A stretch of DNA of 34,082 nt from a virus. The notes beneath the pieces were generated by a model, which saw nothing but the letters and a program-made list of their open reading frames with translations, had not been told where the DNA came from and did no database searches. Shown here one piece after another: positions 2,994 through 18,157 of this stretch (its first letter is position 1; each line of letters begins with the position of its first letter). The translations under genes and the position numbers were made by a program. The DNA lies in IMG/VR virus record IMGVR_UViG_3300037584_002957, positions 1 to 34,082 of that record; one strand, written 5' to 3'.

Positions 2994-3287
2994 ATGGGAT
3001 CATTAATCAAAGGTTCAATTAATTTGAACAAACTGCCAAAAGAAAAACTTATCAAAGGCAAAAACGGAACGTACTATGACTTCACTATTTCAGTGAACGA
3101 TGAGACGGGACAATTCGGTGACAACTGCAGCATCTTCTGCTCACAAACAAAAGAAGAGCGTGATGCAAAGACACCAAAAAATTATGTAGGTAATGCAAAA
3201 GTTATCTGGACTGACGGAACTATCACTACTGCCGAAAGGCAAGAAGAGGTAGAAACAGAATCAGAAACTGCTGACTTACCATTCTAA
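2994..3287 (+). CDS. SSB-like single-stranded DNA-binding protein (97 aa)
   Basis: A short protein with one likely OB fold (residues about 1-75: GSINLNKLPKEKL, GTYYDFTISVNDET, NCSIFCSQTKEERD, NYVGNAKVIW), an acidic linker (EEVETESETAD) and the C-terminal tip DLPF. Bacterial and phage SSBs end in a similar acidic-hydrophobic tip (D-D-D-I-P-F type) that recruits partner enzymes. It is shorter than host SSB (about 110-180 aa) but of usual size for phage versions. It lies two positions upstream of the ERF and exonuclease genes, the setting expected of a recombination-linked SSB. An alternative is an unrelated OB-fold protein. Confidence 0.72.
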   Translation: MGSLIKGSINLNKLPKEKLIKGKNGTYYDFTISVNDETGQFGDNCSIFCSQTKEERDAKTPKNYVGNAKVIWTDGTITTAERQEEVETESETADLPF

Positions 3288-3291
3288 TTTA

Positions 3292-3308
3292 TGCGGCCTT
3301 GTGCCGCA
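3292..3308 (+). other. 6-bp hairpin before the tRNA-like element
   Basis: TGCGGC (3292-3297) pairs with GCCGCA (3303-3308) around a CTTGT loop, 4 nt after the SSB-like stop and 3 nt before the tRNA-like element. There is no T-run, so a processing signal or a weak transcription pause is more likely than an intrinsic terminator. Confidence 0.45.
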
Positions 3309-3311
3309 CAC

Positions 3312-3386
3312 CTCCTGTTACCCACTGGGATGGGCTCGTGTTTAATTGGTTTTCCGAGAGTGTAGGTTCGAATCCTACGCAGGAGT
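3312..3386 (+). tRNA. tRNA-like element, irregular anticodon arm
   Basis: In 75 nt, CTCCTGT (3312-3318) pairs with GCAGGAG (3379-3385) as a 7-bp acceptor with one G-U. T8 and A9 are present. CCC(A)/(T)GGG (3321-3324 with 3331-3334) makes a D arm whose loop carries GG. GTAGG-TTCGAAT-CCTAC (3362-3378) is a perfect T arm with the canonical loop, and a T discriminator follows. CCA is not encoded. The anticodon arm is abnormal: the best stem is CTCG/CGAG (3335-3338 with 3355-3358), 4 bp closing a 16-nt loop, so no anticodon can be assigned. It may be a decayed tRNA, a tRNA with an insertion, or a tRNA mimic. It lies between the SSB-like and ERF genes. Confidence 0.5.
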
Positions 3387-3413
3387 CTAATTTTTAATTT
3401 AATATAATATATC

Positions 3414-3983
3414 ATGGTAGATAAACTAAGCCTTATTCAAGGCAACCTTAAGGCTCCGAAGGGGCAAATGAACAAGTTCGGTGGATACAAATACAGATCT
3501 GCTGAGGACATTTTAGAATCTGTAAAACCTTTACTATCAGAACACGGTCTGATCCTAACATTGTCAGACGAAATGGTAATGGTTGGTGACAGGGTATACG
3601 TCAAGGCTACAGCTAGGCTTACTGACGGTCAGTCTGAAGTTCAAACGACAGCTTTTGCTAGAGAAGAAGAAAGCAAAAAAGGTATGGACGGTAGCCAGGT
3701 AACAGGAGCATCGTCTAGTTATGCAAGAAAGTATGCACTCAACGGACTGTTCTGTATTGATGATACAAAAGACAGTGACGCCACAAATACAGGCGCTGGT
3801 ACTCCAGCTAAAAAGAAAGCTCCTGCAAAAAGCATTTACGAAAAAAGTTTAGCTCATATCAACAACTCTAAAGACAAGGCGTCTGCAGTAAAGCTTATAC
3901 TAGGCAAGTATGAATCTGAGCTTACAAAAGATCAAGTTAAAAAATTAAAGGCGTTAGGGAATCTTGCTGAAGTTATTAAGTAA
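3414..3983 (+). CDS. erf: ERF-family single-strand annealing protein (189 aa)
   Basis: The N-terminal 130 residues carry the ERF pattern: NKFGGYKYRSAEDILESVKP, a central beta region (DRVYVKATARLTDG) and the hallmark GSQVTGASSSYARKYALNGL followed by FCIDDTKDSDATN. This family (P22 Erf type) binds single-stranded DNA and anneals complementary strands in recombination-dependent replication. A linker (GTPAKKKAPAKSIYEK) joins a small helical C-terminal domain. Length is usual for the family. It is preceded by an A/T-rich leader and joined to the exonuclease gene by a TAATG junction, so the pair forms a two-part recombinase. Confidence 0.88.
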   Translation: MVDKLSLIQGNLKAPKGQMNKFGGYKYRSAEDILESVKPLLSEHGLILTLSDEMVMVGDRVYVKATARLTDGQSEVQTTAFAREEESKKGMDGSQVTGASSSYARKYALNGLFCIDDTKDSDATNTGAGTPAKKKAPAKSIYEKSLAHINNSKDKASAVKLILGKYESELTKDQVKKLKALGNLAEVIK

Positions 3984-4738
3984 TGGATCTAGCACTTAAG
4001 TTATCAGAAAAATATGGGAAGGGATACCTCTCTTACTCGTCGATAAAATACGCATTAAAAGACATGCAGTTATTCGAAATGAAGATGAAGGACCAACTCA
4101 AGATAGAGAGTCCTGCTCTTTCTTTTGGTAAGCTATACGACTGTCTGCTCCTCACTCCTGAGTCGTTTAGCGATCAGTTCGTGGTCGCAGACGATACAGC
4201 TATCTGTTTAGAGATAGGTGGTAAAGCTCCACAGAGAACCAAAGCTTACTCAGAATGGAAAGATTCTTTAGCCGAGCCAGGAAAACAAATAGTTTCTGTC
4301 GAAGACAAGGTGAAGGCTGAGGAAATGATACAGAGATTACAAGAAACTGGGGTGCACGAAATATCACTACAAGGCAATGCTCAATATGAGTTTAACGACT
4401 TCATTGGGGACGTCCCTGTACGTGGATTCCTAGACATTTTGAATGACGAATACATAGCTGACTCAAAGACCACGCAGAAGTTAGATAAGTTTAAGTGGGC
4501 TGTGCGAGACTTCGGTTACGATATACAGGCGTATATCTATACAGAGGTTTTAGGGATAAAAGATTTTAGGTGGGTAGCACAAGAAAAGGCATACCCATAC
4601 GCAGTAGGATTATACTTTGCTTCAGATCAAACGCTAGAGTATGGGAAGCAGAAGTTTGATACTGCTGTATCAAGGATACGTGAACACTTAGATAGTGGAG
4701 TAAAAGCAACAACATACTATGAAACATCTTACATATGA
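3983..4738 (+). CDS. PD-(D/E)XK exonuclease, RecE/exodeoxyribonuclease VIII-like
   Basis: 251 residues fit the exodeoxyribonuclease VIII PD-(D/E)XK-like domain. LSYSSIKYALKDMQLF is the N-terminal helix, ALSFGKLYDCLLLTPESF (46-63) corresponds to the G-x-x-x-H/D-x-x-L-x-P segment, RGFLDIL places Asp151, IADSKTT places Asp160 and Lys162 as the D-x-K pair, and GYDIQAYIY supplies the Gln182-Ala-Tyr motif. Such enzymes degrade one strand of duplex ends to expose ssDNA for the annealing partner, here the ERF protein directly upstream (TAATG junction). The stop overlaps the next ATG by 4 nt. All key residues are present, so the enzyme is probably active. Confidence 0.85.
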   Translation: MDLALKLSEKYGKGYLSYSSIKYALKDMQLFEMKMKDQLKIESPALSFGKLYDCLLLTPESFSDQFVVADDTAICLEIGGKAPQRTKAYSEWKDSLAEPGKQIVSVEDKVKAEEMIQRLQETGVHEISLQGNAQYEFNDFIGDVPVRGFLDILNDEYIADSKTTQKLDKFKWAVRDFGYDIQAYIYTEVLGIKDFRWVAQEKAYPYAVGLYFASDQTLEYGKQKFDTAVSRIREHLDSGVKATTYYETSYI

Positions 4739-8499: not shown

Positions 8500-8963
8500 A
8501 GTACTATATTTTCTTTTACCTCTTTGTAGCACGTATCTCCATCACCGTCTTTGTATGCTTCAAGGATTCTGTTTCTGTTGTCTTTATCTTTTAACGATAT
8601 GTGTATCCACGAGAAGTCAAACTCGTTGATCATCTGATCAAACTCAATCCCGTTTTGTACAATGTAATCGTATATAACTTGGTTTTTCATAACGCCTTTA
8701 TCCCAGAATTGGATGTCTACAGCTTGGCCTTTGCAGTGCTGCGACTTTGTACTACCGCCAATAGAGCGATTTAATTTAGGTGATCTGTATCCGCTAGTTA
8801 CACGGATAGGGCCTAACTGATCACGCATAGGCTGTAGTATCTCTGTTACAATACGTTGTAGATTTTTATTATGAGCTTCTGTAGGCTCATTTTTTATACC
8901 CTTTCTTTTTGCTGTGCTACTGCGTGTAAGCTCAGAGAGAGTAAAGTTTTTGCTTAGTCTCAT
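8496..8963 (-). CDS. Endolysin, peptidase M15 family (155 aa)
   Basis: A single-domain zinc peptidase of the M15_3 type, which cleaves peptidoglycan stem peptides. The N-terminal FTLSELTRSSTAKRKGI is the usual lead-in, followed by VTSGYRSPKLNRSIGG. The zinc ligands are His76 and Asp83 in SQHCKGQAVDIQ and His121 in WIHISLK. The length of 155 aa is normal for this enzyme type. It overlaps the giant virion protein gene upstream by 4 nt (ATGA) and the holin downstream by 4 nt, forming a coupled lysis cassette at the end of the late operon. The tail has DGDGDTCYKEV, resembling a calcium-binding loop. No signal peptide is present, consistent with holin-dependent release. Confidence 0.85.
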   Translation of the reverse strand: MRLSKNFTLSELTRSSTAKRKGIKNEPTEAHNKNLQRIVTEILQPMRDQLGPIRVTSGYRSPKLNRSIGGSTKSQHCKGQAVDIQFWDKGVMKNQVIYDYIVQNGIEFDQMINEFDFSWIHISLKDKDNRNRILEAYKDGDGDTCYKEVKENIVL

Positions 8964-11900
8964 TCTACTGTGTTTATATCCAACTCTATCAGCACGTTGT
9001 TAAACGTTGCTTCAGAGTTTAAAGCGATGTAATATAGTAAGAAATTGTTATACCTTTTGAAGTCATCAGGATTCATCTCACCTTCCTTACCTCTGATAAC
9101 AGCGGCTATTTCTTTTGGGGAGCGTCTAGATATTCTGCGCACCTCTGCAGAATATTTCTTGTAATCTTGAGGGAACATCATCTCAGTTACCTTGTCTCCT
9201 ACAGCTCCCTTTAATGCTGAATTAAATTTAGCCTGGCTCAACCCTCTAGCTAAAGTCACTGGATCTTCTTCAGCTTGCTTTTGTAGTATGCTAAGCAACC
9301 TTCCTGGTCCTGCGCCCTCTATACCCTTAATGGTAGCTTTGATTTCAGGATCGTTACCTATTGCAATCAGTATAGTTTCAAATGCTGCAAGCTGTTCCTC
9401 TGAAGAAAGCGCCCTGTCTTTAGGCATATCATCTAATGCTTTGGCTACATAGTCAAGTTCCTTAACTCCTACACCTGCCAGGTTAGCAAAAGATAAAAGC
9501 GTTCTTAATGTATTACTCAACATAAAGTCTGCTCGATCTTCTGGTCTAATAAACCTTTCACGCCCCGATCCTGTAGTATATAAAGTACCACCGTTAAGTG
9601 TAGGCTCAAGCATCTTTTCTAAGTCCATCACAAACTTACCGCCAGGTCCAAGCACACTAAGCGCTGTAAGTATAGCGTTTTGTACTGGCCCTTTTTTGTC
9701 TGTCACTCCTGTTCCGTAAGTTGTTACAGCATCACCGTATTGTTTAAACAATTCAAAAGCATCTTTATCTTCAAGTCCTGGAGCATCATAGTCCGAAGCG
9801 TTAAAGAACAAGTAGTAGTTAAAAAAGTCTTTTACTTTGTTATCGATAGCAGGTGTAGACGGAAGTGGAATTGCGTCTAATACTGTTTGTACAGCAGACT
9901 CCCTTATTGTTTTAGTATCTGTAAGTATTTCATCTAAGTTAGATTCATCGTCGTCATCTCCGAAGCCTTTAACAAATTCAGATATTACTGCTGTCATTAC
10001 CCTAGACATATACGCAAACACAAACAAAGAAGCTGTTGTTCCTGCCAATCCTCTTAATCCATCTTTTCTAGCTTGAGCGTTAGAAGGATCGATAATGCGA
10101 CCAACATCACCAGTAATCGATCTTTTTGTATTGATGGCAAAGCTTTGGAACGGGAGCATAGTCTGCACTAAAAATCTTACGAACGCACTTTTATTTTTAT
10201 AAACATTTGCTGCAAGTCTAGAGCTAGAAATGTTTTGGTCTTTGCTAACTATGTTTTCTGCATAAGCTATAGCCTCCATGTTTGGATTAGCAGCCTCTTG
10301 CTCCCAATTGATTTCTGAGATATCATTTACTGTACCCTCAGATAATAAGAAGTCTGCATAGAAAGCATAAAAAGAACTTATAGCAGCTACCTTGTCTGTC
10401 GTTGTTAGCGTCCACATAGACTTGTCTTGTAGCCAATCACGAGTTTTATCAAGTCGACTCTTATCAAACTCTACCCTACCTGTAAACGGATCTATATTAC
10501 CAGCCTTGTAGTCTCTTAAGAATAAAGTGGTGTGACGCAATAGCTCATATCTTCCGTCGTTTATTTTTACTTTAGGATCGCTAAGAACTTTAAGTTTCCC
10601 ATCTCTATCCTTACCTACAAAAGTTAAAGCCAGCATCTCCCCAAAAGTTCTTATGAGGTATGACTTACCTTGTAGTGTTTTAGTGTTCGCAAAAGCAGAC
10701 AGCATAACAGTAGATTGTTTAAAGAACTGTACAAACACACCACCAAAAGCATTTACTACAGCAGCAACCCTAAACATTTCAAATGGGTTACGTATCATCC
10801 TTCCTGCTACCTTTATATTTTTCTGGAATATAAACGGAACTTCTGATGCGTCAGCAACAAGGTAGTTGTCTATCATTTCTGACAGCTTAGCCTTTATGCT
10901 TTTAGGCATGAGGCCTTGCATAGCTTCAGTTTGGAAGGCATACTTCATAGCAAGCACATCCTCAAGCGACATCATAATAAACGAGTTCTGCCTTAGCGTT
11001 GCCTCATTTATCTTTAAAAAGTTTAGTCCTAAAACAGAATCTCCACCGACAGCTCTTGCTTCCCTTTCAAATGTAGCGCCAGGAGTCTTTGTGTAATTGC
11101 TGTTACCTGCACTACTCAGAGCAGTTATCAGTTGTCTACGTATCTCCATAACAGAATCTAACTGATCATCAAAGCCTTTCTTCCTAACCTTAAACGGAGT
11201 GTAGTTTTCTAATACCTCTAAGGTTTTTCCTAGATATCTTTCTGTGAACTGCTCAAAGCGTGGGCGCATAGACTCATGCATCTGAGATAAGAAGTCTACG
11301 ATTTCTACGATGTCTGTTCTTTCGTTTCTAACTTTATCTAGCAGCTCTTGCAGGTTATTAGTTTGCCCAAACAAATATTCACGAGCGTCTTTAAACTCTT
11401 GTATAGTTTCTGGATCGTATATGTCTGACTGCTCTACTTCGTACTCTTGAATCGTAGAGTCCATAGCGTCACGTAGATTCATAAACCACTCTGCTTCAGA
11501 TAGAGCCTCTGGCTTTTGATTAGCCATAGAGAATATCTGTGCTATAGCATTGGATAGATCTGACGTTATCTCACCACCCTTTTCTGTTATCTCATTGATC
11601 TTGTTTTGCAGGGCAGTGACTCTCTCCACGTGAGCCTGCTCATGCAGGTTTACGCTAGACATAACATCTTGGAAGCCTATCGCCACTAATATTTTAGCTA
11701 CGTCAACGTTACCTACTTTAAATACGTTACGTATAAATGAAGGAACGTTATCTGCAAAGCTTCCGTAAGATCTGTCTTTAGATCTAACACCTTTTGCTAC
11801 AAGAGCTTTAATATCACTAGCTAAAGATATCTTGCCTCTTACTATAGATGCTAAGTATCCAAGACCTATAGTAGAAGAGTTTACTAAGTAGTCATTGATC

Positions 11901-14900
11901 TTGTACTCCAAAGCTGCTAGATGTCTCATATCGAGCTGCACAAGCCTAGCCTTAAGTTCTGGTGCAGAAACGTTATCCATACTAAACAAACCTAGTATTG
12001 TTCTAAATGACTTGTCCTGCAGCAATTCCTCAAGGTTAGCCATAACTCTTGGGATGATGGCGTCAGATAAAATAAGTTCCTTTTTATCTTCTGCTAATTC
12101 AGCACTATCCTTAGCTAACTCATCAAGTACAATCTCTAGATCCTGCACGTTGTTTACATCAAGGCCTAGCTTCTTTGCTGTATCCTCTATCTTCTTACGT
12201 GTAGGGCTTAGTCTACTTCTCTGATACTTTTCTAGTATAGCTTTGTACTCCTCTTCAAATGTTGTTGACTCCCCAGCTTTCTTTGCCGCTTCAACAGCTT
12301 TTGTTGCCCTAGCTCTAAAGTTTGCATCCCTTTCTGTTTCTTCTATAGCTTTAAAGTTTGTAGCTATAGCCATCAGAGATTTTACTTCTTTAAGGTTAGA
12401 TTCTGTTACAACAAGATTACCCTCTTCGTCTTTGCTAAATCTAGCCCTCTTCATACTGTTGTTGACGTCGTTAACAAAGTCAGAGAACGACTGCATCTGA
12501 TCAACAGGTATAAGCGAAGCATCTATCCCAGCTACAATTCTTGCAAGAGATCTGTATGCTCCAAAGTCTTTTTGCCTAGACTTCCTAACCAAAGTTTTCT
12601 GCAACTTACGCATACTCTTAACAAGGTTAAGGTGATCGTCCATTGCTTTCCTTGCATCTTGCTTATCGAATATAGTAGCTAGTTTATCGAGGAATGAGTC
12701 TATAATATCGAGATCGTTTTCCGACAGCCTCTTTGCTGAAGTTCTTGCCATCTGCCCAGCTATAGCGAAGAAGCTCTTTAGCTGTGTAGCACTAAACTTA
12801 TTAGATGTCTTCCTATCTTTCATACGCTCTTTAATAAGAGCCTTAGCTTTCTTAAAGAACTCCTGCAAACTCTTAGACTTGTCCTTAAGTTCTTGCAGTT
12901 GCTTACGTAAATTTTTAGCCTCTGTAGATAGCTTACCCTCTCTACGTCTAGCTTGAGAAGCTATCTTAGCTGACTCTTTTCTAGCAGCTCTCCTCCCCCT
13001 AGCAAACTGAACAGCATTTTTGTATGTTTTTTCTGCTTGCTCTTTCTTCATACCGCTATCCTGAAGGATCTGTATAACTTCATCCTTCTTCATCTTAAAC
13101 AAGTTGACTTGCTTAGATGGTTTGAGAACAAGCTTTTTATTCTTACCCTTTCCCTCCATAACCAAGGTAAATCCTTTTTCTGTAAGCATATCAGCTACAG
13201 TCTCTACAATCTTCTGTGCGCTCTTACCTTCCTCTGCTGTATTATTATCTGCTTCAGCTTGATTTAAAGGACCTACCTCAATATTAAAACCTTCTCTTAT
13301 ATTAAAATCTTCTCTTAATCTTACATTAGTAACACCTTCCTCTTCAGCCTGAACTCTAAGACCTTTAGTAGTTGGGAATATAACAAGCTGATCTTCTCTG
13401 GCCACATCTTCTGTAGAGTATAAGTCTTTGTTTTTACCCCACATTAATCTTGAACTTACATTTCTTGCTTCAACTTCGCCAGCTAATCTTTCATACATAC
13501 GATGCATACTAAACTCCACAAGATCGTCTTGAGTTTTATTTTCAGACTCAACCCATAATGAAGTAAGGTCATCATAAAGCTGTAAATCGTTACCGCCAGA
13601 TTCTTGAAAAACATTTTCTGCCTCTTCGTTTATATTAAGATCATTATAAAATCTTTGTATGGCATTACCATAATTTGTTGGTTCAATCTCTGTACCTTCA
13701 AAATAATTTTTAACTTCCTCTACAAGATTATTTTTTTCTATATACTCAGCACTAAACAATTCTTTGATAGTACTAAAAGTACGTGGAGCTGTCTCTATTA
13801 TTGCTGCTAAAGCTTTGTATAATGCATTTTCAACTCTAAGTTTTTCAAGATTTTCTAAATCTTCTTTAGACATAAGCTCCTCAATATTTTCCATGATAAC
13901 CTCATAGTTACCACCAAAAGCAAACCCTTCCTCATACTGAATCCAATGCTGTATTTCGTGAACAAGATCTGATAAAACTCTATTATTATCCTTTACATTA
14001 ATTTCTATTTCAGAAGTGCCGTCTTCATGTTGAATAAACCACGAGTTTTCTCTACCCTCTTTTCTAACATCAATAGTTACTTTAAGATCTCTAAGCTCAG
14101 GATAATTTGTATACAGCTCAGGAGCATCGTAAATGTCAGACAGTTTATTGACTTCTTCACCATCAAATGTCTTAGTTATTTTACCGTCAGGTATTTCGTA
14201 CCTCCATTTGTTATCTGCACCCTTCTGCCATCCAGTTAATAGTTTTATTTTTTCAGGAGTAGCATTTTGAGACTCAAGATGTTTTGCTAAAAAGTACATG
14301 TCAGTAACATTTTCTTTTAAGTCTGCATTAGCGCCAATAATTTGTTTATTTACTTCTTGCTTTTCCTCATCATCAGTGGTTACTGTTGGTACATCTTTAA
14401 GACCTTCTGTAGCTTCAGCTAGCTTTTGCATGCCAGCGACACCAAAGCCTCCTGCCATAGTGCTAGTAACAGACTTAATAGCGTCAGCTACGTTCTTTAA
14501 CGTAGGGTTTTTAAACTCTGTACCAAACAATCTACCTACGTAGTTTTTTAGTGACGTTATAAGACCTTGCTTATACTCTGCTGACAAATCACCGTTAGTG
14601 ATGTCAGCAAGTATTTCCATAACAAGTTCCTCAGCAGCTTGTGGGTTTTTCTCTACGATTTGTGACAGTAATTTTCTAGCAAGCTCATCCGTTACAGCTA
14701 CTTCTGCTAAAGCCTGTTGCTCTTCAGTAAGATACTCACTAATAAAAGCTAAGTATCTTTTAGCGTTAGGTAAAGCCATAGCGAACTGGCGTGCAAGTTT
14801 ACGCAACGCTGTTCCTGCACCTTGCTTTTCGTCCATCTGCATAGCAGCAGAGTGGAAAGCTTCGTGGTATGCTGTGTTTGCTTTTAAAGCAGGTAAGAAA

Positions 14901-17900
14901 AGGTGGACTTGATTACCATCCTTTATATGAATACCTCTTGATACCTCCTGGCCTGTAGCTTTTTCAAAAGCTTTAGCTGTACCATGAATAAATACCTGAC
15001 CTCCCTGACCTACAACAGTTTGTATTACTTTCTTTACGTTTTGAAGTCCACGTATAATTTCTTCACGAGAAGAAAATTTAGTAGATATAATTTTACCAGC
15101 ATTGATAATTCTATCTATAACGCTGTTGGCATTTTCACCAGTAAGCTCTACTGAATTTCCTCTACTTACTCTCCCGTAATCTGTTATATCTGGATCTACT
15201 CTACCCACCTCATCTATAACAGCTTGAGTTTCAGGATCTTCTAAGTTTTGCTCTAGGAAAGATTGATTTTGTGAGTACTTACCCTCTATATTAAACTTAG
15301 CTTCAAAAGCTTGTTTTGTATCTGCCTGTAAAGCTGAAAGCTCTGCTTCGTACACAGCAACAGCATCCTCGTTGCCTTGGCTTCTTGCTTCCTCTAAGTT
15401 TTTTCTAGTATCAAAAGCTTTTCTTCTGTTTTTTCTAATACGAGTATTATACCCACTTATTTCTGTTAGATCTTCATCACTAACATTCATTAAAAAAGCC
15501 ATGTCCCTAGCTGACACCCTCCACATCTGATCCTGCGTTTCAAGCATTTCTTTTTTAATTTGCTTTCTCCTTTCAGGATTTTGTTCAGTTTGTAGTCTTT
15601 TCTGTAAAGCTTCATATTTATTTTCTAAAGATATTTGATCTTTAAAATTAAATTTTGAAGCTAAATAAGAGGGCGCTCTTACAATACCCATTTGTATATT
15701 TCCTGCTACAGTACCTAAAGCAAAAGCATCAAGAGTTTCTATATAGTTATATTTTAAATTAGTTTTTTCTATTTCTTTACCAGCTATTTGTCTTTGTAAA
15801 GAAGAAGACACATCATCAGCTATGCCTGGTGTGTCAAGTCTAGTTTGTAGATCAGAAATTTCTCTAGTCAAAGCTACACGGTGAGCATAATTAGTAAGGT
15901 GCTGACCTGCAAAAGAAACCAACCCTTCCTCTATACCTTCTTCAAAAAATTTAAATACGTTATTTTTTGTTGTTCTTCTCCATAATTTGTTAGCTGTCCC
16001 TACGAAGCCTTTTTTAGCTATGGTTTCTGCTGCTTCTCCTGCAATTTCTTTTCCGCCTATACCAAACATTTTTCGTATAGCATTAGCAGAAATTACCTCT
16101 TGCTTCATAAAAATTTTCTCAGAAAGATATTCAAAGCCTCCCATAAAAGAAGCATACATCATTTTTTCTGCGTGATTTAAATGCGGAACATCTTTTATAT
16201 CACTGTACGCATTACCTGCAGCTGACGTAGCAAAACTTTGTAAAGCTACTTCTGGATGGCCCATAACAGTGAGTCCTATTTGAACAGCTATTTGTGGTAC
16301 TACTTCACCAACTCCGTCTAAAAACAATGTTAGACCTGCTTCAGAATTACCAAAACCTTGTCCGAATATTCCTTTTTCTATTTCCTCTAAAGTCACACCT
16401 TTTCCCAGCAATCTAGATTGCGTCATAGAAGAAGAAATATCACCCCACGAAAGCACAGCTTGATCTATCTTACGTCCATATTTATCAAGTTGTCCTTCTA
16501 CAAACAAAGGGTTTCCCCTGCCTATATCAAGTCCATATGCATCGCTTTTTTCATATGCAGTTATATACTCTTCTGAGCTAGGTATAATCCCAAATGTCAT
16601 CATATTAGCAGCATCTGCTGCCCCAAAAAATAAGAAGCCTGCAAAACTGTCTAAATGTTTAAAGTAAGATCTGTCATCGAAATTCCTACCTATAGACTCA
16701 GCACTTCTTTTATACCTTTCAATAGCTGTGTCAGCGTTCATAAAGACTTCATCCATAGAAAACTGCATTACTAAATCAACAGCATTATATGCTCTCCTTT
16801 TTACACCAAACACTTCGTTAGACTCATTGTATAAAGAAATCATATCTGCTTCAGTTTGTCTAATTTCTTCAAACAATTGTGTTTGCTCCTCAACAGTTGT
16901 TGCTTTAGAAAAAGCATTTGCAAAATTTTCTGCGTATTGTCTAACTGTCTCTCTATTTTTTGCAGCTTGAACCACCTCTGCTTTAGCCGTATAAAAACCA
17001 GCTACTTTATAATATTCTTTTAAGCTTTCAGCCTCAGCATCAGCCTGAGCTTGCTCGTCATCAACATAGGTAACGGCACCTTTGGCGGTATATTCTTTCC
17101 ATTTTTCATACGTATTAATTACCTCTGGCATAATACCTTGAGCTACAGCTAACTCATCTTCGTTTGTTGGGATATATGATTTATTTACATTATCTAAGTG
17201 CGGCTCATAAAAGAAACCATCGTAATCTCCTTCAGGATCTAAGTTGTTTTTTTCAAAAAACTCATCATCCATATCTTCAGTAAAGACTTTTTTTATCTGT
17301 CCATCTTCAGCTAAGTACATTGTAATACGACTCATAGGAATCACACTTTCAGCATAATCGCTATACTCGCCTATATGAAACTCTTTGTTAATTATGTTTC
17401 TTTTTTTAGTTTCTACAGCTAAAGTAGAATTAGGATCATCCATAAGTAAGCCACTGCTTCTTATAACTCTTTCAAAATCTTCTACTGTAGTTGTAGCAAA
17501 AAAATCGTAGTCTCTGTAAGTTTCATAAATTTCGTTTGCAAAACTAGGAATGTCATCCGCACCTACAGGCAAACCAACAGACATGCCTCTATTAACAATC
17601 CATTTTTTAGATTCCGTAAAAATTTCGTAATCTAAATTGCCTTTGTTATTTTCTGGATCTTGTAGTATTTTTGATTGAATATCACGATGCACCGCATTGA
17701 TATCCTCCTCAGAATACATGGGAGTGCCTGCAAAACTATCTACTGTTTGCCTAGACATCTCATCGTAAACATCTACCCTCGTACCAAAGATGCTTTCAAA
17801 AAAATCACCCTGTAGTGCCTCTTGTCGTGACGCCAATCGTGACAGATCGCCCTCCCTTTCTGAAGGTGGCACAGTAGTGTCCGTTTGAACATCTAAACCT

Positions 17901-18157
17901 CCACCTTCTACACCATATCCTAATAGAGTAGAGTACTCTTCCGATAGCACTAAATCTTTTTTTTTTGGGGCTACGCCAGCTAAGAAAATAAAATCCCTTT
18001 CGTTACCCTCAAAGCCAGCTTCTTTAACAAGAGTAAACGCAGAGTCAAAATATGTCTGCTGTTGCATCATATCAAACAGTTGCTCTTGAGTACCTACGTA
18101 TCCAACGTCCTTTAGAATAGTAAATATATTGTTTTGATATTCTGTAAATCCGTTCAT
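8960..18157 (-). CDS. Giant internal virion / polyvalent ejection protein (3065 aa)
   Basis: One uninterrupted frame of 3065 codons. The N terminus has two copies of a mini-motif (FTILKDVGYVGTQEQLF, FTLVKEAGFEGNERDF). Two zinc-metallopeptidase-like motifs follow: YHEAFHSAAMQ (HExxH 1098-1102) and LVHEIQHWIQYEEG (1400-1404). Around 1680-1790 comes a long basic coiled coil (ARGRRAARKESAK, LRKQLQELKDKSKSL). The C-terminal third resembles 'large polyvalent protein-associated' domains (FRVAAVVNAFGGVFVQFFKQ, PFQSFAINTKRS), with a hydrophobic stretch TASLFVFAYMSRVMTAVI near 2705-2725. By position, between a lysin-bearing internal protein and the lysis genes, it corresponds to T7 gp16 but is over twice as long. 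It is probably packaged and injected with DNA. No single-subunit RNA polymerase motifs were recognised. Confidence 0.72.
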   Translation of the reverse strand: MNGFTEYQNNIFTILKDVGYVGTQEQLFDMMQQQTYFDSAFTLVKEAGFEGNERDFIFLAGVAPKKKDLVLSEEYSTLLGYGVEGGGLDVQTDTTVPPSEREGDLSRLASRQEALQGDFFESIFGTRVDVYDEMSRQTVDSFAGTPMYSEEDINAVHRDIQSKILQDPENNKGNLDYEIFTESKKWIVNRGMSVGLPVGADDIPSFANEIYETYRDYDFFATTTVEDFERVIRSSGLLMDDPNSTLAVETKKRNIINKEFHIGEYSDYAESVIPMSRITMYLAEDGQIKKVFTEDMDDEFFEKNNLDPEGDYDGFFYEPHLDNVNKSYIPTNEDELAVAQGIMPEVINTYEKWKEYTAKGAVTYVDDEQAQADAEAESLKEYYKVAGFYTAKAEVVQAAKNRETVRQYAENFANAFSKATTVEEQTQLFEEIRQTEADMISLYNESNEVFGVKRRAYNAVDLVMQFSMDEVFMNADTAIERYKRSAESIGRNFDDRSYFKHLDSFAGFLFFGAADAANMMTFGIIPSSEEYITAYEKSDAYGLDIGRGNPLFVEGQLDKYGRKIDQAVLSWGDISSSMTQSRLLGKGVTLEEIEKGIFGQGFGNSEAGLTLFLDGVGEVVPQIAVQIGLTVMGHPEVALQSFATSAAGNAYSDIKDVPHLNHAEKMMYASFMGGFEYLSEKIFMKQEVISANAIRKMFGIGGKEIAGEAAETIAKKGFVGTANKLWRRTTKNNVFKFFEEGIEEGLVSFAGQHLTNYAHRVALTREISDLQTRLDTPGIADDVSSSLQRQIAGKEIEKTNLKYNYIETLDAFALGTVAGNIQMGIVRAPSYLASKFNFKDQISLENKYEALQKRLQTEQNPERRKQIKKEMLETQDQMWRVSARDMAFLMNVSDEDLTEISGYNTRIRKNRRKAFDTRKNLEEARSQGNEDAVAVYEAELSALQADTKQAFEAKFNIEGKYSQNQSFLEQNLEDPETQAVIDEVGRVDPDITDYGRVSRGNSVELTGENANSVIDRIINAGKIISTKFSSREEIIRGLQNVKKVIQTVVGQGGQVFIHGTAKAFEKATGQEVSRGIHIKDGNQVHLFLPALKANTAYHEAFHSAAMQMDEKQGAGTALRKLARQFAMALPNAKRYLAFISEYLTEEQQALAEVAVTDELARKLLSQIVEKNPQAAEELVMEILADITNGDLSAEYKQGLITSLKNYVGRLFGTEFKNPTLKNVADAIKSVTSTMAGGFGVAGMQKLAEATEGLKDVPTVTTDDEEKQEVNKQIIGANADLKENVTDMYFLAKHLESQNATPEKIKLLTGWQKGADNKWRYEIPDGKITKTFDGEEVNKLSDIYDAPELYTNYPELRDLKVTIDVRKEGRENSWFIQHEDGTSEIEINVKDNNRVLSDLVHEIQHWIQYEEGFAFGGNYEVIMENIEELMSKEDLENLEKLRVENALYKALAAIIETAPRTFSTIKELFSAEYIEKNNLVEEVKNYFEGTEIEPTNYGNAIQRFYNDLNINEEAENVFQESGGNDLQLYDDLTSLWVESENKTQDDLVEFSMHRMYERLAGEVEARNVSSRLMWGKNKDLYSTEDVAREDQLVIFPTTKGLRVQAEEEGVTNVRLREDFNIREGFNIEVGPLNQAEADNNTAEEGKSAQKIVETVADMLTEKGFTLVMEGKGKNKKLVLKPSKQVNLFKMKKDEVIQILQDSGMKKEQAEKTYKNAVQFARGRRAARKESAKIASQARRREGKLSTEAKNLRKQLQELKDKSKSLQEFFKKAKALIKERMKDRKTSNKFSATQLKSFFAIAGQMARTSAKRLSENDLDIIDSFLDKLATIFDKQDARKAMDDHLNLVKSMRKLQKTLVRKSRQKDFGAYRSLARIVAGIDASLIPVDQMQSFSDFVNDVNNSMKRARFSKDEEGNLVVTESNLKEVKSLMAIATNFKAIEETERDANFRARATKAVEAAKKAGESTTFEEEYKAILEKYQRSRLSPTRKKIEDTAKKLGLDVNNVQDLEIVLDELAKDSAELAEDKKELILSDAIIPRVMANLEELLQDKSFRTILGLFSMDNVSAPELKARLVQLDMRHLAALEYKINDYLVNSSTIGLGYLASIVRGKISLASDIKALVAKGVRSKDRSYGSFADNVPSFIRNVFKVGNVDVAKILVAIGFQDVMSSVNLHEQAHVERVTALQNKINEITEKGGEITSDLSNAIAQIFSMANQKPEALSEAEWFMNLRDAMDSTIQEYEVEQSDIYDPETIQEFKDAREYLFGQTNNLQELLDKVRNERTDIVEIVDFLSQMHESMRPRFEQFTERYLGKTLEVLENYTPFKVRKKGFDDQLDSVMEIRRQLITALSSAGNSNYTKTPGATFEREARAVGGDSVLGLNFLKINEATLRQNSFIMMSLEDVLAMKYAFQTEAMQGLMPKSIKAKLSEMIDNYLVADASEVPFIFQKNIKVAGRMIRNPFEMFRVAAVVNAFGGVFVQFFKQSTVMLSAFANTKTLQGKSYLIRTFGEMLALTFVGKDRDGKLKVLSDPKVKINDGRYELLRHTTLFLRDYKAGNIDPFTGRVEFDKSRLDKTRDWLQDKSMWTLTTTDKVAAISSFYAFYADFLLSEGTVNDISEINWEQEAANPNMEAIAYAENIVSKDQNISSSRLAANVYKNKSAFVRFLVQTMLPFQSFAINTKRSITGDVGRIIDPSNAQARKDGLRGLAGTTASLFVFAYMSRVMTAVISEFVKGFGDDDDESNLDEILTDTKTIRESAVQTVLDAIPLPSTPAIDNKVKDFFNYYLFFNASDYDAPGLEDKDAFELFKQYGDAVTTYGTGVTDKKGPVQNAILTALSVLGPGGKFVMDLEKMLEPTLNGGTLYTTGSGRERFIRPEDRADFMLSNTLRTLLSFANLAGVGVKELDYVAKALDDMPKDRALSSEEQLAAFETILIAIGNDPEIKATIKGIEGAGPGRLLSILQKQAEEDPVTLARGLSQAKFNSALKGAVGDKVTEMMFPQDYKKYSAEVRRISRRSPKEIAAVIRGKEGEMNPDDFKRYNNFLLYYIALNSEATFNNVLIELDINTVE

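Follow-up and report, generated by a model that had tools for sequence, protein, structure and literature searches.

The element at positions 3312 to 3386 of the window (the whole stretch of 34,082 nucleotides of phage DNA that was analyzed) is well supported as a relic of a tRNA gene with a retained top half. The comparisons suggest that the amino-acid arm was preserved and the codon-reading part was lost, and that the RNA is kept as an mRNA cutting signal or as a tRNA mimic, not for translation. Judged from the sequence, a role in punctuating the transcript appears the most likely of the readings considered.

The 34-kb record is a marine Bacteroidota phage with a rightward early block of genes for an HTH-like ORF, an SSB-like ORF, the annealing protein ERF, a DUF3799 nuclease, and a primase/helicase with BT4734-like and DnaB domains (Table 1). 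Named phages with a related helicase have hosts mainly in Flavobacterium, Cellulophaga, Maribacter, and other Bacteroidota. The HTH-like ORF has a homologue adjoining the SSB gene in L223, L009, and L288, and the Pfam search gave no match for the SSB-like ORF. A scan of genome contigs with ERF returned ERFs of other bacteria, all of them distant, and nothing closely related to the phage. Elsewhere in the window, the neighboring overlapping ORFs at 921-1238 and 1225-1536 (starting MKDNKLIAEFMG and MKDNKLIAKFMG) are apparently a tandem duplication, and the 3065-aa ORF on the minus strand at 8960-18157 is possibly a large virion or injected phage protein. A close relative (L219:1-1000 and L220, helicase 96%) has a ParB-like ORF inserted between the ERF and DUF3799 nuclease genes.

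Table 1. Early-block features surrounding and composing the tRNA-like element of the window
Feature	Positions	Strand	Basis or remark
Small HTH-like ORF, 75 aa	2756-2983	+	Precedes the SSB-like gene; Pfam HTH_23 match weak and under the curated threshold
SSB-like ORF, 97 aa, acidic tail with DLPF end	2994-3287	+	Homologues precede tRNA-Arg in sister phages
GC hairpin TGCGGC-CTTGT-GCCGCA	3292-3308	+	Just downstream of the SSB stop; separated from the acceptor stem by 3 nt
Acceptor stem, 5′ strand CTCCTGT (CTCCTGC in relatives)	3312-3318	+	Paired in all sequences
U8-A9	3319-3320	+	Invariant
D-arm region, CCC/GGG stem in a slipped register, loop containing GGG	3321-3334	+	Canonical D arm in L007
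Central stem, 5′ strand CTCG	3335-3338	+	Window clade: paired with 3355-3358
12-nt core of the 16-nt loop, TTTAATTGGTTT	3341-3352	+	1/12 changed versus L007
Central stem, 3′ strand CGAG	3355-3358	+	Closes the 16-nt loop
T-arm GTAGG-TTCGAAT-CCTAC	3362-3378	+	Perfect, 5 bp
Acceptor stem, 3′ strand GCAGGAG	3379-3385	+	Alignment and pairing
Discriminator base T (A in L007)	3386	+	No encoded CCA after it
ERF single-strand annealing protein gene	3414-3983	+	Pfam ERF, E 3.4e-42
DUF3799 PDDEXK-type nuclease gene, after ERF	3983-4738	+	Pfam PF12684, E 3.6e-22

The SSB-ERF gap of 126 nt holds the GC hairpin, three bases, and the tRNA-like element. No second promoter of the Bacteroidota TAnnTTTG type was seen in the gap on inspection by eye, and cotranscription of SSB and ERF is therefore likely. 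The position between these two genes, first noticed in the window, is that of the element in nine IMG/VR contigs. The stem of the GC hairpin is identical in eight sequences, with variation confined to its loop.

The element is laid out as CTCCTGT TA CCCACTGGGATGGG CTCG TGTTTAATTGGTTTTC CGAG AGT GTAGG TTCGAAT CCTAC GCAGGAG T. The 7-bp acceptor, U8-A9, and canonical T-arm of the original prediction were all present, as was the 4-bp stem (CTCG/CGAG) closing a 16-nt loop; the inner acceptor pair is U-G in the window and C-G in all relatives. The D arm had been described as intact and proved noncanonical, since the CCC/GGG stem of the window clade is slipped one base out of the canonical register and A14 is absent. 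A canonical D arm with A14 and GG was found only in the relative L007 (GCTC AATGGTA GAGC; the same contig as L223), which differs from the window at 9 of the 14 positions of this region. In place of a normal anticodon arm with 5 bp, a 7-nt loop, U33, and a purine at 37, the window has 4 bp and 16 nt. The central-stem pairing is mostly broken in L007 in the window-clade register, and comparison of pairing in the two gave no anticodon arm consistent across lineages.

Default ARAGORN (tRNA/tmRNA) and the Rfam gathering cut-offs missed the element in the window. When the cut-off was lowered, as had been suggested, ARAGORN at a 90% threshold reported exactly one gene in 34 kb, at 3312-3387. A pattern scan for a 7-bp acceptor, U8, a 5-bp T-stem, and a TTCRANY loop also matched the window at the element only, with 0.01 matches expected per window in sequences generated with its dinucleotide content. 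The folding energy is ordinary (z −1.0). Covariance scoring divided the family: the window version gave no match to RF00005 and its best Rfam model was tRNA-Sec (13.2 bits, cut-off 47), whereas L007, the most divergent homologue, passed RF00005 with 39.4 bits (cut-off 29), so that the family can be taken as tRNA-derived. The anticodons that ARAGORN assigned to the window and to L007 are inconsistent. A small ORF spanning the element (MRPCAAHLLLPTG..., start at 3291) is broken in L007 and has no coding conservation by eye.

The nine contigs are mostly near-identical and represent three lineages in all, the depth coming from L009 (ERF 80%) and L007/L223 (ERF 86%). Between L007 and the window-clade member L002, 3 of 31 acceptor and T-arm positions and 1 of 12 positions of the loop core 3341-3352 were changed, compared with 53 of 101 four-fold-degenerate sites of SSB and ERF between the window and L223 (binomial P = 6e-7 and P = 0.002, respectively). 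The D region and central stems were changed at 17 of 29 positions in the same L007-L002 comparison, significantly more than the acceptor and T-arm (Fisher P = 8e-5). Because 17/29 is close to 53/101 and both 3/31 and 1/12 lie far below it, the middle has evolved at an approximately neutral rate and the top half and the loop core have been held; these selection figures rest on few lineages. Every acceptor and T-stem change in the aligned relatives preserves pairing, and the T-loop varies solely at the free position 59. T-stem pair 3363/3377 is U-A in the window and U-G in L007. The original prediction had been staked on compensatory changes in the acceptor and T stems, and one was found at T-stem pair 3362/3378, where G-C is replaced by A-U in L009 through a double change.

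No such element was seen beside the SSB-like homologue in Elemovirus and in L090-L095, and the gene table of Polaribacter phage P12002L, which also has an SSB-like homologue, lists none. In Flavobacterium phage elemoE (L230:4295-4400), a terminator-like hairpin with a T-run lies between the SSB-like and ERF genes in place of the tRNA-like element. In L092-L095 (about 3300-3400 in each, about 1070 in L094), a conserved tiny ORF, MKKLTINPQFETPVVGL..., lies between the SSB-like and the next gene and overlaps a CTACCAC/GTGGTAG inverted repeat. A search with the pattern ATTGGTTT yielded mostly ordinary tRNAs and chance matches, and a match of the hairpin pattern in L229 was rejected as a chance match in GC-rich coding sequence.

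The slot itself points to a tRNA ancestor. In the sister phages L010-L014, L016, and L288, in which the ERF, nuclease, and SSB-like proteins are clear homologues of those of the window, a canonical tRNA-Arg with a TCT or CCT anticodon lies 33-67 nt downstream of the SSB-like gene (E about 1e-51). In the window clade the tRNA-like element occupies this slot, 24 nt after the SSB-like stop and with the hairpin between. Overall, a tRNA-Arg or a tRNA-like element was found 24-67 nt downstream of the SSB-like gene in nine of nine loci with a strong SSB-profile match, loci that had been fetched by ERF or helicase searches and some of which are closely related. A strong hairpin separates the SSB-like gene from the tRNA or tRNA-like element in L016, L288, L010, and the window clade, and those of the three sisters are terminator-like, some with a T-run. 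In more distant phages tRNA-Arg stands behind an 82-87-aa protein weakly similar to the SSB profile. Early-operon tRNA-Arg genes (TCT/CCT), often behind a strong terminator-like hairpin, were also noted more widely (L010-L014, L016, L021, L022, L288, L298, L305, L335, and others).

Descent from tRNA-Arg in particular is supported by position and not by sequence. A search of 1.06 Mb and 0.75 Mb of phage DNA with R1, a covariance model built from the element, found tRNA genes as its main other matches. Neither R1 nor local alignment with 487 phage tRNAs, a panel biased by the pattern that fetched it, singled out Arg. AGA and AGG make up 72% of the Arg codons in the window, so a lost need for tRNA-Arg is not obvious.

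Our favored reading, put forward tentatively and at somewhat less than even odds, is that a former tRNA lost decoding and was kept as an RNase P-type cleavage signal that splits the SSB/ERF transcript; an RNase P signal was also among the readings offered in the original prediction. The element would descend from a phage tRNA gene behind the SSB-like gene (tRNA-Arg for AGA/AGG codons in relatives). In the window clade, decoding has been lost, with the acceptor stem stacked on the T-arm kept and a stable hairpin directly upstream. The proposed cuts are one by RNase P at 3311/3312 and one by a tRNA-type 3′ nuclease behind the discriminator. They would leave a protective GC hairpin three bases from the 3′ end of the SSB message and give the ERF-nuclease-helicase message a 5′ end of its own. 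The comparisons show that the element is of tRNA ancestry, that its top half, its slot, and the hairpin are conserved, and that a decodable anticodon arm has been lost; cleavage and what it does to the two messages are inferred. Bacterial RNase P requires the acceptor stem, T-stem, and T-loop, and it also cuts tRNA-like structures in other transcripts, such as a phage antisense RNA precursor and polycistronic mRNA (PMC11143913). Punctuation is favored because the retained parts are those that RNase P needs and because the enzyme cuts tRNA-like structures within transcripts; it fits both the conserved parts and the 5′ hairpin. By sequence and pairing, the element has the layout of non-tRNA RNase P substrates, with an acceptor stem coaxial with the T-stem-loop and a single-stranded 5′ leader of 3 nt behind the hairpin. 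Against this reading, a 12-nt loop core is held though a pure signal needs none, and no CCA is encoded. The GC hairpin is equally compatible with ordinary stabilization of a 3′ UTR and no cleavage. Text searches of an open literature library, itself incomplete, turned up no account of elements of this kind.

The middle has two competing folds. The slipped D stem and the CTCG/CGAG stem give a cloverleaf in the window clade, with an extra pair 3340/3353 that is G-U, A-U, or G-C among relatives. An alternative fold into one long arm matches the cloverleaf in stability in the window, exceeds it in L007, and contains two covarying pairs, 14-47 and 15-46. Cleavage alone would not account for the conserved loop core, which may in addition make a contact of the D-loop kind, bind a protein, or act as a pairing loop.

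The main rival to punctuation is a stable tRNA mimic or decoy, the latter also named in the original prediction, which we regard as unlikely but worth retaining. The RNA would be processed like a tRNA, possibly tailed with CCA, and would occupy a host factor that binds or cuts tRNA, such as an anticodon nuclease or another tRNA-targeting defense; the enlarged loop would be a bait or a site that resists cutting. The kept elbow and acceptor features, the lost decoding, and the conserved loop core agree with such a role, as do the acceptor/T-arm RNAs with unusual middles in relatives. Evasion of anticodon nucleases has been proposed for phage tRNAs whose anticodon loops are altered (PMC10264068). 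An anti-nuclease tRNA of that kind has a functional anticodon with loop mutations, and the element has no usable anticodon loop; the register of the central stem moreover differs between the two lineages, which argues against a fixed mimic of the anticodon arm. A T4 RNA ligase search for an RNA-ligase repair gene gave no match, but it gave none in any control genome either, so that this negative carries no weight.

Less probable is a structured noncoding RNA in which the loop TTTRATTGGTTT is the active part, pairing with a target RNA, binding a protein, or docking with the T-loop as a D-loop does, and the tRNA shell gives just processing and stability. The core changed at 1 of 12 positions against 53 of 101 four-fold sites, its AATTGG, a common D-loop sequence, and the covarying pairs of the long-arm fold speak for it. 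A short acceptor/T-arm RNA in L022 with the loop TTTTGTTGGTG adds to this, but that match was found post hoc and TTGG-like motifs are frequent. There was also no convincing complementary site in the window: in a loop-target search of the window and L223, the longest complementary runs, with GU pairs allowed, did not exceed those of shuffled loops in length.

Rated slightly lower again is a tRNA pseudogene in decay that no longer has a function. The decayed tRNA of the original prediction stands as far as origin is concerned, with L007 at 39.4 bits and the slot that of a real tRNA-Arg in sister phages, and the lack of a usable anticodon and the inconsistent ARAGORN anticodons of the window and L007 would suit it. 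Simple decay is disfavored: it explains neither the conservation of the acceptor, T-arm, and loop core, set against a near-neutral middle and background, nor the compensated T-stem pair.

A functional but atypical tRNA, which might for instance lose loop bases through splicing or editing, is very unlikely: L007 passes the tRNA-model cut-off, but the tRNA with inserted loop bases that had been proposed finds no consistent U33-NNN-R37 frame, the stem register differs across lineages, and no bacterial pathway is known that would splice so short an insert. Least credible is an attachment site that derives from a host tRNA. Attachment sites are often tRNA genes, but no result here supports this reading, and compensatory changes within the phage would not be maintained by identity to an attachment site. 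Neither a tyrosine integrase (PF00589) nor a large serine recombinase (PF07508) was present in any record searched, including two of 55 kb, although some of the records may be incomplete.

A wider survey covered 74 loci fetched with a helicase alignment, in which perfect T-arms outside ARAGORN tRNAs were counted per strand. Nine distinct ones lay on the operon strand, including a tRNA-Arg cut by a contig end, and one on the other strand, with about one expected per strand. In the helicase and ERF loci together, many such T-arms are closed by acceptors of 6-7 bp over odd middles, and some of these RNAs reach the Rfam tRNA cut-off and are rejected by ARAGORN. A branched RNA of about 130 nt with an acceptor-like stem and a tRNA T-arm was found at L292:2717-2845, L319:1603-1731, and L320:845-974; 15 of its 49 predicted pairs are compensated among only three sequences, the L319 version has two mismatches in the acceptor stem, and no Rfam family was found for it. 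It is a plausible suggestion, still short of probable, that Bacteroidota phages keep a varied class of RNAs, with nothing in common but the acceptor stem and T-arm of a tRNA, between early-operon genes on the operon strand. Their middles would be large loops or long branched arms and their role that of a processing signal or tRNA mimic. In such a class the window element would be a mild member and the L292/L319/L320 RNA an extreme one, and standard tRNA annotation would miss the class.

Several further RNAs were recorded individually. In L335:7647-7730, an 84-nt four-arm RNA with the acceptor GGTCATC/GATGACC and a T-arm lies downstream of a real tRNA-Arg; ARAGORN made no call, and the nearest Rfam model was tRNA-Sec (16.3 bits). 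L064 has another acceptor/T-arm RNA with an odd middle, and L022:6852-6912 is the short acceptor/hairpin/T-arm RNA mentioned above, which has no D arm and a loop resembling the conserved core of the window. The tRNA-Leu-like genes at L024:5193-5290, L027:4760-4865, L027:5286-5412, and L027:5503-5599, and those with a tRNA-Leu-like start and long inserts at L293:5602-5717 and L023:1775-1911, have an intact acceptor, D start, and T-arm and at least a dozen extra bases in the anticodon region, with 19-29 nt between the anticodon-stem strands in L024 and L027 by eye. Several reach the Rfam tRNA cut-off and are rejected by ARAGORN. At L027:2657-2776 and L024:4138-4271, a tRNA-like gene carries a second complete T-arm hairpin (GAGAG TTCGAGT CTCTC) in its middle and resembles one tRNA 3′ end nested inside a second.

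The element illustrates how selection separates the halves of a phage tRNA, with the amino-acid half kept and the codon-reading half drifting, and the relatives of the phage suggest an RNA class mostly unreported by ARAGORN and Rfam. Should the element be a cleavage signal, tRNA shells would serve phages as punctuation of operons, and this would bear on the still open matter of why lone tRNA genes occur in phages.

Among known systems, the sister tRNA-Arg genes (UCU/CCU; L010-L014, L016, L288) share with the element the slot, the tRNA-type acceptor and T-arm, and in several cases the upstream hairpin, but they are canonical and found by ARAGORN, whereas the element is without a normal anticodon arm. 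The phage tRNAs of van den Berg et al. 2023 (PMC10264068) likewise concentrate their changes in the anticodon region; these are otherwise ordinary tRNAs whose loops carry point changes, and decoding is proposed for them, whereas the element with its 16-nt loop cannot decode. The tmRNA also joins an acceptor and T-arm to a non-tRNA body, but the element has 75 nt, no tag reading frame, and no ARAGORN tmRNA call. The non-tRNA substrates of RNase P (the C4 antisense RNA precursor of P1/P7, his operon mRNA, the TYMV tRNA-like end, and model hairpins) similarly place an acceptor on a T-arm within a longer transcript; compared with them, the element, known here from its sequence, still resembles the descendant of a tRNA.
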